Source: Candidatus Dadabacteria bacterium (GTDB lineage Bacteria > Desulfobacterota_D > UBA1144 > Nemesobacterales > JADFKM01). Taken from it: a stretch of 60,980 nt of DNA. Location of the stretch: the NCBI GenBank assembly GCA_022564935.1, contig JADFKM010000004.1:1-60980 (forward strand), in the 5' to 3' direction. Position numbers and translations under genes: made by a program. The notes under the pieces were generated by a model. It saw only the letters and a program-made list of their open reading frames with translations. It did not search any database and had not been told where the DNA came from. Each line of letters begins with the position of its first letter. Within the stretch, counting starts at the first letter, position 1. Below, piece by piece: positions 7,343-12,956 of this stretch.

Positions 7343-7416
7343 TGGGGGATCGTCTAACGGCAGGACGATGGGCTCTGGTCCCATTAATCTAGGTTCGAAT
7401 CCTAGTCCCCCAGCCA
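7343..7416 (+). tRNA. tRNA-Gln (anticodon CTG)
   Basis: A 74-base cloverleaf with acceptor TGGGGGA/TCCCCCA, D arm, anticodon arm ATGGG/CCCAT with loop CTCTGGT (anticodon CTG at 7375-7377), a T arm carrying GGTTCGAATCC, and an encoded CCA at 7414-7416. Its last dozen bases are also the 3' end of a truncated recombinase frame on the other strand. This points to the tRNA 3' end as the integration site of a lost element. Confidence 0.97.
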
Positions 7417-7731
7417 TTCTTGATAAGTAGTGCAATCTACCATTAAATCAAACGGTTTTTTTAAAGAATATTGAAGGGTTGCACCTTTTAATTCTAAGTT
7501 CGAAAATACAGAGTTTATGAGCTTCCTTTTTTGCTCTATGTTCGAACTTTCAAATAGTTCGTAAGCCTTTGATGCTATTGAAAGTACTGTGTTTACCGTT
7601 ATTTTGAAGTTCTCATCTGCTTTGAGATAATTTTTTAGTTGTTCGTTGATTTGATATTGCCTGTTCTTAAGTTCCTGACATTTTCTTTCATGCTCGTCTG
7701 GAGTAATGCTCTGAGAAGAGCTGTAATACGC
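7402..7731 (-). pseudogene. Serine recombinase, C-terminal remnant at tRNA-Gln
   Basis: The minus-strand frame encodes about 105 residues typical of the C-terminal end of large serine recombinases: ITPDEHERKCQELKNRQY, ASKAYELFESS, EQKRKLINSVFSNL and SLKKPFDLM, ending EWLGD. A stop codon (7732-7734) cuts the frame on the N-terminal side, so the catalytic and zinc domains are gone. The stop codon and last codons lie inside the tRNA-Gln 3' end. The remnant is AT-rich and overlaps the end of the radical SAM gene in another frame. Confidence 0.85.
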
Positions 7732-9130
7732 CTATATCCTCCGTCATGGAGGCCTGTTCCTCTTGCTTCAAAAGATTTATCTGATGCTCATATTCATCCT
7801 TGTTGTCCCTGCATGCGCGGTTCCACAGTAAGGCAAAGACAGCTGCAACAGGGGATCTGGTATCCCACAAATTCCTGATAAATCTCTTTAGTAGGAATAA
7901 GTTGCTTCCAGTCAGTTTATAAGCAACCTCCCCCCTCTTCTTATACAGCTCTAGGGGGGTTAGATTCTTGGGCTCCAGGGTCACATAACGCAAATTATAT
8001 TTCTCCCAATCCTCCGGGAAATTAGTATACCTAAGCCGCCCCGCAGCCTTCATATCCGAAAACAGCTTTGTTCCGGGCATGGGGCACGAGATATTAACGT
8101 TTTGAGTGCCTATGCCAACCTCATTTATAAAATCCAAGGTGTCTTTAAAGACATTTTCATCATCACCATCGTTGCCGAAGATAAATGACCCGACCACAGT
8201 TATTCCGTGTCTCTGAGTATTGCGTATATTCTCCGCATAGTCCCCGGGAGTATTAATCCCCTTATTCATATCCTTAATAACCTTCTTGTTTATAGACTCA
8301 AGTCCGAACAAAACGGTTCTACAACCGGCCTTATACATCCACTTCAACACCTCGTCCTCCTGCCCGAGGTTTTGGGTACACTGTGTTCCCCAATACTTCC
8401 TTACCCCCTGCTTGCGGAGCTCATATAGCGCCTTGCACAACTCAATTGCCCGCTCCCTCCCCCTCCTGCCGGAGCCAATAAAGTTGTCATCGGCTACCAT
8501 CACAATCCTCGGTTTTATATTTTTAAACTCCTCCACCACATCCTCAATAGGGCGATACCTCATAGACCTTCCGTTTATCAGCGTGACTGAGCAAAAACTA
8601 CAGTTATAGGGACAGCCCCTCGCGGTTTGAACAATCCCCCAACGATATGCGTCAGTAAACGGATTCTTTATTACCGGAACGATATCCAGATTCGGGACAC
8701 CCCCTTCGTAGACTCTCTGAAGGGAATCGCTCTCGAAGTCCTCTAGTATAGTCGGCCAAATCGATTCCGCTTCGCCCACACATACGCTGTCTCCATAACG
8801 CATGGCTTCCTCGGGCATAATGGAGGGATGTGGGCCGCCCAATATCACAGGAATTCCCCTTCTTCTAAAAACCTCGGCAATACCATAGGCTCTAGGGGCT
8901 TGGTTGGTCCAAAGGCTTATTCCCACCAAGGATACGTTAGACGTATCCATATTGACATCAAACCTATTTCGCGATTCATCCACTATTTCAACATCCCACT
9001 TATCCTTCGGGGTGAGCGCATCTAGAACGAGAAGACCTAATGGCGGAAACGACCCCGTAGTGCTGCTTACGCCTGCTGAGTTTTCCGGGTACGGCTGAAT
9101 AAGAATCATCCTTTTTTTTACGGCTGACAT
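7688..9130 (-). CDS. B12-binding-type radical SAM protein, 480 aa
   Basis: An N-terminal Rossmann-like cobalamin-binding-type domain (about 1-140, with GGPHPSIMPEEA) is followed by a radical SAM domain with the cluster motif CPYNCSFC (Cys173, 177, 180). The usual DxHxxG cobalamin histidine motif is not evident. Related enzymes methylate or rearrange unactivated carbons in lipid or cofactor pathways; the substrate is unknown. An AAGGAGGG ribosome site supports the ATG. The gene is AT-rich and lies between two serine recombinase remnants, so lateral arrival is likely. The last residues may be altered by the junction with the recombinase remnant. Confidence 0.88.
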   Translation of the reverse strand: MSAVKKRMILIQPYPENSAGVSSTTGSFPPLGLLVLDALTPKDKWDVEIVDESRNRFDVNMDTSNVSLVGISLWTNQAPRAYGIAEVFRRRGIPVILGGPHPSIMPEEAMRYGDSVCVGEAESIWPTILEDFESDSLQRVYEGGVPNLDIVPVIKNPFTDAYRWGIVQTARGCPYNCSFCSVTLINGRSMRYRPIEDVVEEFKNIKPRIVMVADDNFIGSGRRGRERAIELCKALYELRKQGVRKYWGTQCTQNLGQEDEVLKWMYKAGCRTVLFGLESINKKVIKDMNKGINTPGDYAENIRNTQRHGITVVGSFIFGNDGDDENVFKDTLDFINEVGIGTQNVNISCPMPGTKLFSDMKAAGRLRYTNFPEDWEKYNLRYVTLEPKNLTPLELYKKRGEVAYKLTGSNLFLLKRFIRNLWDTRSPVAAVFALLWNRACRDNKDEYEHQINLLKQEEQASMTEDIGVLQLFSEHYSRRA

Positions 9131-9396
9131 ATTCCCTCCTTTTTAGGATAACTTAACATATACTGGCAATCGCTATTAATTAATCTCTTTCTATCTTACA
9201 CCTCTCCCCATTAAAACCAAGCAAACGATAAGTAAGAGAGTATCTTGAGCAAGCACAGAATATGGCGGATAATTGGCTAAGGAGTTGCAATGAATAGCGT
9301 CCCCATGAGTCGCTCGGTGGGTTGTCACCCAGCTTGCTCCGAGCAAAAGTAGTGGCCGAAAGTTCTACTTTTGAACTGTCCACTTAAATGGGAAGC
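9131..9396. other. Unassigned region between radical SAM gene and recombinase remnant
   Basis: No gene is supported. A 67-codon minus-strand open frame (9180-9383) has an odd composition and no recognisable domain or ribosome site. It may be further debris of the integrated element. Confidence 0.4.
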
Positions 9397-9600
9397 TTAC
9401 ATCTCGAAGTTATTCATATCAGAATTTAATTCCAGCAATTCTTGGTATTTATTAGTTCGAAGTGTATCCAATAGCCCCAGCCAGAATTTATAAGAAGCGC
9501 CATCCGCCATCGTGTTGAGAGGTTTCCTTAAGGAGCATTCGACACTTGACCCACTTCTTTTCGATTTTAAAAACATAGAGTTCATTATTTTCATATCGTC
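9397..9600 (-). pseudogene. Second serine recombinase C-terminal remnant
   Basis: Minus-strand codons encode MNSMFLKSKR, CSLRKPLNTMADG and FWLGLLDTLRT before a stop. Over 39 positions this aligns without gaps to the end of the remnant at 7402-7731, sharing the spaced K, NS, F, G, SL-x-KP, M, D, Y and WLG residues. That identifies it as another C-terminal recombinase end. Upstream the frame turns into low-complexity AT-rich sequence, so only this tail is left. Confidence 0.6.
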
Positions 9601-9697: not shown

Positions 9698-10267
9698 ATG
9701 GCAAGACCAACGGTTAAGCTAGACGATATTGAAAGGGCGGCTATAAAGCTGTTCGCTTCTCGCGGCATCGGCCATGTGACCATTAAGGACATCGCGCGGG
9801 AGGCGCAGTGCGCCGAAGGGGCTCTTTACTGCCATTACACGGGCAAGGACGATCTGGCAAGCACGCTGTTCATTCGCGAGGTGTCGAAGTTCGGGTCGCG
9901 GCTCAAGACCGTTCTGTGCGGGCCGGGCTCTTTTGACGATCGTGTGAGGAGGGGGGTGGGGACTTTTTACGCCTATTTCGACGACGACCCCGTAGCTTTT
10001 TCCTTTGTTTTGCTTTCCCAGCACAATTTTCCTGACGGTGTAGACGTCGACCCGGAGGTTAACCCGGTGAGCCTGTTGATACGTTTTGTCGAGGAGGGGA
10101 CAAAAGCCGGTGCTTTCGTGACGGCAGACCCCCTTTTTAAGGCGTCAATGGTTCTCGGTCTCGTCCTTCAGCCTGCGACCATGATGGCGACCGGCAGGCT
10201 TGATGGGAGTATGGAACAAAGAGCGGATGAGGTGACAAAGGCGTGTTTGGGAGTGCTGCATTCATGA
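9698..10267 (+). CDS. TetR/AcrR-family regulator, probably of fatty acid metabolism
   Basis: A 189-residue repressor. The N-terminal helix-turn-helix spans about 8-55 (IKLFASRGIGHVTIKDIA, then GALYCHYTGKDDL); the C-terminal ligand domain is variable. The start ATG follows an AGGA ribosome site. It is the first gene of a two-gene operon with a fatty-acid-activating acyltransferase 13 bases downstream. A 24-bp palindrome overlaps the promoter. An acyl-CoA- or acyl-ACP-sensing role is inferred from operator and neighbour. Confidence 0.92.
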   Translation: MARPTVKLDDIERAAIKLFASRGIGHVTIKDIAREAQCAEGALYCHYTGKDDLASTLFIREVSKFGSRLKTVLCGPGSFDDRVRRGVGTFYAYFDDDPVAFSFVLLSQHNFPDGVDVDPEVNPVSLLIRFVEEGTKAGAFVTADPLFKASMVLGLVLQPATMMATGRLDGSMEQRADEVTKACLGVLHS

Positions 10268-10280
10268 GGAGTTCAGCGCT

Positions 10281-12956
10281 GTGATAGCTCAGGCGATAGA
10301 GAGACGGGCCATCGAGAGCCCTGAAAAAACGGCGGTTCAAATCAAGCGCGATGGGAAGTATTACACGGTCACATACGCAGAGCTCTGGAGCCGCTCCATT
10401 GCCGTCGCCGCCGCTCTCCGGGACGCGGGCACCCAAAGCAGCGACCGCGTGGCGCTGTATGCCGACAACACGCCTGAGTGGGTCGTTTGTTTTCTGGGAA
10501 TACACCTCTTGGGAGCGGTCGTTGTCCCTTTAGACGTACAGTACAGGGCGGGTGACATCGAGCCTTTGTTGCTTTTTTCGGAGTCAAAAGCCGTGATTGC
10601 CGATAGGGACAGGGTTGGGGAGGTAGAGGAATTCATCGAAAGCTCGGGCGCTGAGATCAATGTTTTCGTGATAGATCCCGCAGACCCCGTCTCCATAATT
10701 AATGCCCCTGAGCAGGAAGGGTTTGTAGCTCACAGCCACAACCCGGACGACCTCATGTCCATTATATTCACTTCCGGCACGACGGGCGACCCTAAAGGGG
10801 TCGAGCTTACTGTGGGCAACATTTACAGCAACGTAACCGAGGTATTGAGCACCATTAAGGTCAGGGGGAGCGACAACATACTCAACATACTTCCCCTTCA
10901 CCATGTGTACTCAAGCAACGTCGGCCTCATCGGCCCTTTGTGCGTCGGAGCCACGGTCACGTTTTGCAGCTCCCTTAAAGGCCCTGAACTGTTGAGCGCT
11001 ATGCAGGAAACGGGAGTGAGCATTTTCCCCGGCGTGCCCAAGCTGTTCAGCCTGTTCGACAGGGCGATTTTTCAAAAAGTAGATTCGCTCGGTCTTGTGC
11101 AGAGAATGGTGTTTTTGGCTCTATTCCGGATATCCGGCTGGTTAAGAAGGGTCGCGGGGCTGCGTGCCGGGCGATTTTTCTTCAGCGCCATACACAAGCA
11201 GTTCGGCCCTAAATTCCGCTTTATGGCGAGCGGCGGGGCGAAGCTTGACAAAAACGTGTGCGAGCGGTTTTTGGACCTGGGCTTTGTATTAATCGAGGGG
11301 TACGGCCTCACGGAGACCTCCCCGGTTATTTCGTTCACCTCGCTTTCCGATCCCACGCCCGGAAGCGTCGGGCTGCCGATTGAAGGGGTAGAGGTTAAGA
11401 TCGATTCCATGGACTCCGAGGGCACGGGAGAGATATGTGTGCGCGGGCCGGGACTCATGCGGGGCTATCACAACAACGACGAGGCCACCGGGAAGGTGAT
11501 GAAGGACGGGTTCTTTCATACGGGCGACCTGGGCTATATGGATAGCAAGGGGATGATCCACATAACGGGACGAGCCAATGAGGTAATTACGCTTTCATCG
11601 GGCAAGAACATATATCCCGAAGATGTGGAAAAGCACTACGCGGAGACCCAGATGGTAGAGGAGATATGCATTCTGCCGGTTGAGGGTGGCGAGGCAGGGG
11701 TCGAGAGGCTGAGGGCCGTGGTCGTGCCCGATGCGGGGGAGCTTGCCGCAAGGCATGTGGTCGATGTTAGGGAGCGCATCAGGTCGCAGCTTGCCATAGT
11801 CGGGGCGAAGCTTCCGAGCTATATGCACGTCACCGACCTCGTTCTGCTGGATGCGGAGCTTCCCAGAACGAGGCTCGGAAAGCTAAGGCGCGCCAAGATA
11901 GAGGAAATGGTTAAGGAAAAAAAGGAGTCCGGGACAATTGACGGAGCCCGTGAGATACCTCGTGAGATGGTGGAGCTGATGGATGCCCCTCAATCAAAGA
12001 AATTTCTGAAGAGGCTTGCGGAGCTAACCCGGAACGACGGCCCGTTTTACCCGGACCAGGAGCTGGCCATAGACCTTGGCGTCGATTCCCTTACCAAGTT
12101 ACAGCTCGCTGTTGTGCTTGAGCAGGAATTCTCCACCAAAGTCAACGAGGAAGAGCTGTCGGAGCTGAACACAGTGGGCGATATGCTTGAAATAATCCGC
12201 GGGGCCGACACCGATGAGCAAACCGCCGAGGCGGAGCTAAGCTGGTCAGCCGTGCTCCGGGAGCCCCCGCTGACACGCCTCGATGAGCTGTTTAATGTGC
12301 GCAGGGGCGCGCTCAATAGGATCATGGTCAGGGTTATAAAGGCGCTGGGCTACGTTTTGGTTCGCATCTTTTTCCGGGCGACAATCAAGGGGGCGGAAAA
12401 AATTCCAAGAGACCGGCCGGTGTTGATCTGTCCCAGCCATAACAGCTACATCGACCCTGTGCTGCTATACTGCTTGCTCCCCGGCGAGGTGGTTAACGGC
12501 TTATTTTTTGTGGGGTTCGGAGACGTGTTCAGGAGACCCCCGCTCTCGTGGATAGTGAAGAGCGCAAGGATAATTTTCACCGGGGCGGCGAGCACTATGG
12601 TGGAGTCCCTCAAACTCTCATACGACGCGCTCAACAGGGGAAATATCGTCTGCATATTTCCCGAGGGCGGCAGGGCGACGGGCAAAGATTTTATGAAGCC
12701 GAGGCCGGGCGCCGGAATACTGTCGGTAGAAGCCGGAGTCCCCGTGGTACCGGTCTATATTAAAGGGGCGGATAACATATTATCACCTGTGAGACCCGGT
12801 TTCAGGTTAACCAAGATCAGTTTGTACGTAGGCGAGCCTATCGAGCCCCCACCCGGCGCCGCAAGCCCAATGGAGAGCTACGGGGAAATGATGAGCAGCT
12901 GGGAGCGTGCGGTAAGAGGTCTGAGGGATGAAGCCGGGGAGCTGGGGAGTGGCTAA
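10281..12956 (+). CDS. Fused acyl-adenylate ligase / acyl carrier / PlsC acyltransferase
   Basis: Three domains in one 891-residue protein. Residues 1-560 are an AMP-binding ligase: P-loop FTSGTTGDPKG (163-173), GYGLTETSP, HTGDLGYMD and the C-terminal lysine in GKLRRAK (about 534). Residues about 570-645 are a carrier domain with the phosphopantetheine serine in GVDSLTKL (Ser603). Residues about 690-870 are a PlsC-type glycerolipid acyltransferase with HNSYID (His720, Asp725) and FPEGGR (about 793-798). It probably activates free fatty acids, parks them on its own carrier and esterifies lysophospholipid or glycerol phosphate, like E. coli Aas. The start is GTG with a GAGGAG ribosome site. Confidence 0.9.
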   Translation: MIAQAIERRAIESPEKTAVQIKRDGKYYTVTYAELWSRSIAVAAALRDAGTQSSDRVALYADNTPEWVVCFLGIHLLGAVVVPLDVQYRAGDIEPLLLFSESKAVIADRDRVGEVEEFIESSGAEINVFVIDPADPVSIINAPEQEGFVAHSHNPDDLMSIIFTSGTTGDPKGVELTVGNIYSNVTEVLSTIKVRGSDNILNILPLHHVYSSNVGLIGPLCVGATVTFCSSLKGPELLSAMQETGVSIFPGVPKLFSLFDRAIFQKVDSLGLVQRMVFLALFRISGWLRRVAGLRAGRFFFSAIHKQFGPKFRFMASGGAKLDKNVCERFLDLGFVLIEGYGLTETSPVISFTSLSDPTPGSVGLPIEGVEVKIDSMDSEGTGEICVRGPGLMRGYHNNDEATGKVMKDGFFHTGDLGYMDSKGMIHITGRANEVITLSSGKNIYPEDVEKHYAETQMVEEICILPVEGGEAGVERLRAVVVPDAGELAARHVVDVRERIRSQLAIVGAKLPSYMHVTDLVLLDAELPRTRLGKLRRAKIEEMVKEKKESGTIDGAREIPREMVELMDAPQSKKFLKRLAELTRNDGPFYPDQELAIDLGVDSLTKLQLAVVLEQEFSTKVNEEELSELNTVGDMLEIIRGADTDEQTAEAELSWSAVLREPPLTRLDELFNVRRGALNRIMVRVIKALGYVLVRIFFRATIKGAEKIPRDRPVLICPSHNSYIDPVLLYCLLPGEVVNGLFFVGFGDVFRRPPLSWIVKSARIIFTGAASTMVESLKLSYDALNRGNIVCIFPEGGRATGKDFMKPRPGAGILSVEAGVPVVPVYIKGADNILSPVRPGFRLTKISLYVGEPIEPPPGAASPMESYGEMMSSWERAVRGLRDEAGELGSG

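Follow-up and report, generated by a model that had tools for sequence, protein, structure and literature searches.

Probable double insertion of related tRNA-targeting serine recombinase elements at a tRNA-Gln gene in a Candidatus Dadabacteria genome

Introduction

The tRNA-gene island catalogue Islander (PMC4383910) was built on tyrosine integrases; serine integrases were then not known at tRNA genes, and a 2015 paper states that they were not known to target them. Later tRNA-island resources may hold serine examples, and we do not claim priority. In streptococcal ICEs with a single serine integrase in rumA (PMC4701971), attP lies inside the integrase gene and the 3' ends are exchanged.

Here, we describe a tRNA-Gln locus in a 60,980-nt stretch of DNA from a Candidatus Dadabacteria bacterium (GCA_022564935.1, contig JADFKM010000004.1), hereafter called the window, whose assembly is 89% complete. 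The locus has the traits of a tRNA-integrated island: an intact tRNA gene, an att direct repeat and an island between the two copies. As in the Islander islands (PMC4383910), the island is flanked by the intact tRNA gene on one side and by a displaced att copy on the other, and stacking occurs at one tRNA. Unlike those islands, which are defined by tyrosine integrases, it belongs to a serine recombinase, and the repeat is just 9 bp plus a diverged arm. The alignments also point to a rumA-type exchange, in which target and integrase gene trade their 3' ends. As in the rumA ICEs (PMC4701971), attP appears to lie in the serine integrase gene, the 3' ends of target and integrase gene being swapped and the integrase C-terminus changed. 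In contrast to the rumA ICEs, the target is a tRNA 3' end in antisense and not a protein gene, the recombinase is of a different family, and no conjugation genes were found among those tested.

Results and Discussion

Layout of the tRNA-Gln locus

We consider it very likely that the tRNA-Gln 3' end was invaded twice by related elements and that the inner one was reduced to a radical-SAM gene between its ends. The features of the locus are as follows; the handles L, G and C used below denote loci, genomes and contigs.

7343..7416, plus strand: tRNA-Gln(CTG) gene (ARAGORN), the target, whose 3' end would be attB
7408..7416, plus strand: att core on the tRNA side (CCCCAGCCA), complement of recombinase codons W-L-G; exact 9-bp direct repeat with 9475-9483 (junction alignment)
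7402..7707, minus strand: tail A, the last ~100 codons of the serine recombinase of the inner element, with a tRNA antisense end and a start at ATTACT (7702-7707)
7708..7732, minus strand: junction between radical-SAM homology and recombinase tail (blastn against the L170 orthologue halts at 7733; recombinase DNA from 7707)
7688..9130, minus strand: B12-binding radical-SAM gene, surviving cargo, 3' truncated (Pfam Radical_SAM and B12-binding; 82% identical orthologues in G019 and G022)
9397..9474, minus strand: putative attP arm of the inner element, former recombinase C-terminal codons (LLDTLRTNKYQELLELNSDMNNFEM and stop) imitating the tRNA T-arm
9475..9483, strand not assigned: att core at the far end (CCCCAGCCA), 9-bp direct repeat
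9484..9600, minus strand: tail B body, left from the recombinase of an older element and apparently pushed off the tRNA by the inner element (39 residues, 38% identity to tail A; in-silico tRNA junction)
9698..12956, plus strand: flanking chromosome with a TetR gene and an AMP-ligase/acyltransferase gene

The inner element thus spans approximately 7408-9483 (~2.07 kb). The flanking TetR and AMP-ligase/acyltransferase genes are also adjacent in G013 and G025, but away from tRNA-Gln. The gene between the tails is of the B12-binding radical-SAM type, as the first-pass annotation had described it. It is only mildly AT-rich, with a GC content of 47.4% against 51.3% for the window; both tails have a GC content of 31-33%.

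The two recombinase tails

Tail A reads ITPDEHERKC...TTYQEWLGD on the minus strand and stops at 7402-7404, within the 3' half of the tRNA, and tail B (9397-9600) lies in the same orientation ~2.07 kb away. The two align without gaps over 39 residues with 38% identity (pairwise E 6e-10; E 1.5e-4 when the whole genome was searched). Both tails recognized at first reading are real. The end then given for tail A (7402-7731) also stands, while its start does not, as the recombinase part begins at the motif at 7702-7707. Tail A shares 72-90% identity with recombinase tails elsewhere in the order, matches genes annotated as 'recombinase family protein', including Legionella and Neochlamydia recombinases, and matches a profile of full-length large serine recombinases (LSRs) of its family with an E value of 1e-31. 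The full-length members carry Resolvase, Recombinase and Zn_ribbon_recom domains. No Resolvase, Recombinase or zinc-ribbon domain was found in the window remnants, and either tail alone gave no match to the Pfam, PHROG and NCBIfam recombinase profiles, since the profiled domains do not extend into the tail; the profile check suggested earlier was thus negative with public recombinase profiles and positive for tail A with the family profile. A PDB sequence search with the tails returned nothing. Both tails are thus what is left of the C-terminal ends of recombinases from one LSR family. They are relics of an LSR gene and not a working member, with ~100 codons left and no intact integrase.

A reading of the tail ORFs as conserved small genes was rejected, since no usual start codon lies near the frame start in the tails read. 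It is also contradicted by the stops that several tails carry and by the low dN/dS among tails (0.06-0.26, valid pairs), which fits recent truncation of working recombinases; from these values, the truncations look recent and repeated.

Overlap with tRNA genes in the recombinase family

A profile of full-length relatives was scanned against one genome per species, which revealed 80 loci, mostly in Patescibacteria and Dependentiae. With those cut by a contig end left out, the coding end overlapped a convergent tRNA 3' end in 67 of 78 full-length homologues, the tRNAs being Asn, Asp, Gln, His, Arg, Glu and Leu. An in-frame Trp codon (TGG) fell exactly at the complement of CCA in 48 of these 67, and in most of the others the tRNA was called without CCA. 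Overlap with a tRNA is therefore the rule in this family, and what the first-pass annotation had called unusual is a habit of the family. The family occurs in Patescibacteria, Dependentiae and Deltaproteobacteria-labelled MAGs and, more distantly, in Legionella and Chlamydiae; it is a widespread and little-noticed family of tRNA-targeting serine recombinases. Two further distant relatives overlap tRNA-Glu and tRNA-Leu. The two 'phage' records that contain them were considered as a circular form and rejected, as they are bacterial-looking scaffolds in which the recombinases overlap these tRNA genes.

The strict register, in which the Trp codon is the complement of CCA, makes attB and attP predictable from sequence alone in many uncultured lineages. 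It also explains recombinase proteins whose C-termini resemble tRNA antisense (DSNL, GFEP), and it offers tRNA-targeted serine integrases with readable specificity.

Attachment sites and probable order of insertion

DNA alignment of the tail ends revealed two forms that diverge exactly at TGGCTGGGG. The first form runs to ...GAATGGCTGGGG and continues into tRNA antisense (window 7405; L027, L032, L035 and L040). The second has the same body up to TGGCTGGGG, followed by CTATTGGATACACTTCGAAC..., a coding arm (LLDTLRT...) mimicking the T-arm of the tRNA (window 9475; L028). An attP located within the 3' end of the recombinase gene would be expected to produce two such forms. The far-end arm was found in the right orientation at L032, L034, L035 and L036 (tRNA-Gln) and at L033, L037 and L039 (tRNA-His), and it was absent at the six unoccupied tRNA-Gln loci searched. 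Across 44 genomes, the arm pattern gave 19 matches in 13 genomes and the reversed-pattern control gave none; not all of the 19 matches have a linked tRNA on their contig.

Within the window, CCCCAGCCA occurs as an exact 9-bp direct repeat at 7408-7416 and 9475-9483; taken by itself, this repeat is weak. A second copy of the tRNA 3' dozen bases had been proposed as the outer attachment site; no long repeat of the tRNA 3' end was found in the window, and the far-end site consists instead of the 9-bp core and a diverged arm. Joining the tRNA in silico to the tail B body, as in an empty site, gave ...DGASYKFWLG followed by a stop in the tRNA.

These alignments suggest the following mechanism. The tRNA-Gln 3' end would serve as attB of a tRNA-specific LSR, with attP inside the 3' end of the LSR's own gene, and recombination would occur within TGGCTGGGG, the complement of the tRNA acceptor end plus CCA. 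Integration would keep the recombinase gene up to the Trp codon and replace its last ~25-35 codons by tRNA antisense, while the former C-terminal codons (the attP arm) would come to lie at the element's far end. Element 1 would have inserted first. Element 2 would then have entered the same regenerated site and displaced element 1 outward, so that the recombinase of element 1 received the attP arm of element 2 (W-LG-LLDTLRT...) and element 1 shrank to tail B. Element 2 would have lost its recombinase upstream of the ATTACT motif and retained one cargo gene, the radical-SAM gene. The order of these events and the exact crossover, which is placed from the alignment, are what we infer from the junctions.

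In this arrangement, tail A corresponds by sequence to the integrated, tRNA-ended form of the recombinase. The recombinase DNA beyond the second core, together with the in-silico tRNA join, indicates that tail B was once also a tRNA-ended recombinase that was pushed outward by a second element. As tail A is tRNA-ended and tail B carries the arm of the inner element, two successive insertions at one tRNA are indicated. What counts against this account is the short tail B body, with 39 aligned residues at 38% identity. Among the genomes searched, none had a pre-insertion allele with these flanks, and no circular form was seen. Tail B is followed directly by the TetR gene, which makes it impossible to place the far end of element 1. 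Element 2 would at present be immobile; no full-length recombinase or initiator homologue was found in the window's assembly, which at 89% completeness could be missing an intact helper element.

The first-pass annotation had inferred that an element integrated at the tRNA 3' end and then decayed, leaving the radical-SAM gene within it. This is borne out by the 9-bp repeat and the attP arm, and the same anatomy, with cargo between tRNA and arm, recurs at tRNA-Gln or tRNA-His in several relatives. It had also taken the tails as the two ends of one element, which would require a recombinase gene that was present twice or duplicated, with a tail at each end. Both tails do belong to one family and have the same orientation, but 38% identity is too diverged for a duplication inside one element. 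Moreover, the attP arm is found on tail B and the tRNA end on tail A, which is the pattern required of a far-end junction and a tRNA junction, and the far ends of single elements in L032, L034 and L035 consist of the arm with no recombinase body. A single element is thus already disfavoured and, in our estimate, improbable; under two successive insertions, the part of tail B that comes from the inner element is just its last 25 codons.

Cargo of the elements

The radical-SAM orthologues in G019 and G022 (82% amino-acid identity) lie away from any tRNA and outside any such element. Nucleotide homology to them ends at 7733 and the recombinase starts at 7707, which indicates that the window gene has lost its 3' end and uses a stop codon supplied by recombinase DNA; filler and recombinase-derived DNA encode ~12 residues at the end of its frame. 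From these orthologues outside any element, it could be argued that the gene simply belongs to the chromosome here and that recombinase remnants arrived around it separately, but we regard this as very improbable, as the orthologues have an RND efflux gene and a phosphatase-like gene as neighbours, the tRNA-Gln loci of G019 and G022 lack the gene, and the window gene lies between two att cores with its 3' end joined to recombinase DNA. The gene at the same place with no recombinase, which would have spoken against the earlier interpretation, was accordingly not found, the G019 and G022 copies being elsewhere.

The other tail-bearing elements of the order have unrelated cargo. In L032, the cargo comprises asparagine-synthase-like and isochorismatase-like genes, named from the sequence without profiles. 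In L035 (G037:C7, 7452-12405), the cargo between tRNA-Gln and arm, also read from the sequence, resembles a nitric-oxide reductase operon, with SCO1-like, heme-copper oxidase-like, Rrf2-like and hemerythrin-like genes.

The ATTACT breakpoint and the partner protein

Nine tails in the order of the window start within 15 bp of ATTACT when aligned to a longer relative (query positions 960-974 in L032, motif at 973), and three other fragments start further in. The sequences upstream of the tail starts are unrelated to each other, and a transposon end at ATTACT was rejected because they share nothing. In another lineage, a tail in L073 is 89% identical to the intact gene at the same locus and starts exactly at ATTACT, and in L104, recombinase codons 1-330 are joined straight to the motif. 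A profile artefact was rejected as the cause of the common start, since the same profile gave scattered start positions for decayed recombinases in Dependentiae and the DNA alignments end sharply. In 55 of 72 intact genes, the hexamer is retained at synonymous positions; the accompanying codon test takes no account of relatedness. A second stretch in the last 300 bp, conserved at the nucleic-acid level, forms an inverted repeat AGTTC(T)GAA ... TTC(A)GAACT in many members (for example L073 7008-7307; window 7402-7707). We also observed a 63-bp tandem duplication in the tail of L033 (250-480), in which both copies begin at ATTACT.

In each of three full-length tRNA-His elements of the order, the recombinase is accompanied by a ~380-aa protein and a ~345-aa protein, and in two of them also by an HTH_3 protein; the cargo of these elements varies from type I restriction-modification to Chlamydia-PMP-like surface proteins and RND and P-type metal efflux. 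More than 50 of the 80 loci encode a homologue of the ~380-aa protein no more than 10 kb from the recombinase, and no homologue was found in G000 or in the window. The protein family is unannotated, with no significant match in the profile libraries, and one member weakly matches Pfam Rep_trans (E 0.03). A structural model built from 52 sequences reached a pLDDT of 87 (44 with 3 sequences) and had no significant match in the PDB; its best viral matches included an annotated inovirus G2P replication protein (E 8e-5, probability 1.0, TM ~0.45). By predicted fold, the partner thus resembles an inovirus G2P protein, and with the weak Rep_trans match it may be a rolling-circle initiator. In contrast to inoviruses, no Zot/pI was found among the proteins tested (no pI/Zot morphogenesis ATPase among the Pfam matches of the genes tested from full-length elements), and the cargo consists of restriction-modification, surface proteins or metal efflux.

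These observations would be consistent with a nick site at ATTACT or with a second recombination site there; in the former case, AGTATTACT would span the candidate nick point before the motif. A broader reading can be proposed, namely an undescribed superfamily across several phyla that combines a tRNA-CCA-specific serine recombinase with a rolling-circle initiator, in which ATTACT would be the nick-and-rejoin site of the initiator (or a second recombination site) and truncation would proceed actively and site-specifically, converting autonomous elements into small cargo islands that lack a recombinase, like that in the window. Taken jointly, these parts amount to a speculative proposal that we consider rather unlikely to hold in full. 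Both the recurrent truncation at ATTACT and the conserved initiator-like partner can be tested directly.

Stacked and abutting elements in relatives

Tandem stacking was also found outside the window. In G029:C2 (54637-76836; L032 and L228), three arms in the same orientation lie in line with one tRNA-Gln, which suggests three stacked elements of ~5, 12 and 5 kb, and in L033 (G029:C30), a full-length tRNA-His element abuts an older tail. In L229 (G012:C9, 6134-7919) and L232 (G024:C8, 2142-5076), tRNA-Gln and the attP arm are separated by 1.7 and 2.9 kb, respectively, with no recombinase remnant between them, and these are apparently recombinase-less elements. In L027 (G013:C107, 16475-16637), two near-identical tRNA-Gln(CTG) genes lie 15 bp apart and a recombinase tail overlaps the second; the tRNA gene may have been duplicated by an insertion. 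In L039 (14337-14540), an attP arm of the tRNA-Gln type adjoins the far end of a tRNA-His element, so that two specificities abut. Finally, in one genus, at least seven genomes have degenerate tails of the same family beside tRNA-Arg(ACG) (L016, L017, L019-L023, L042 and L043), which apparently derive from one old shared insertion.
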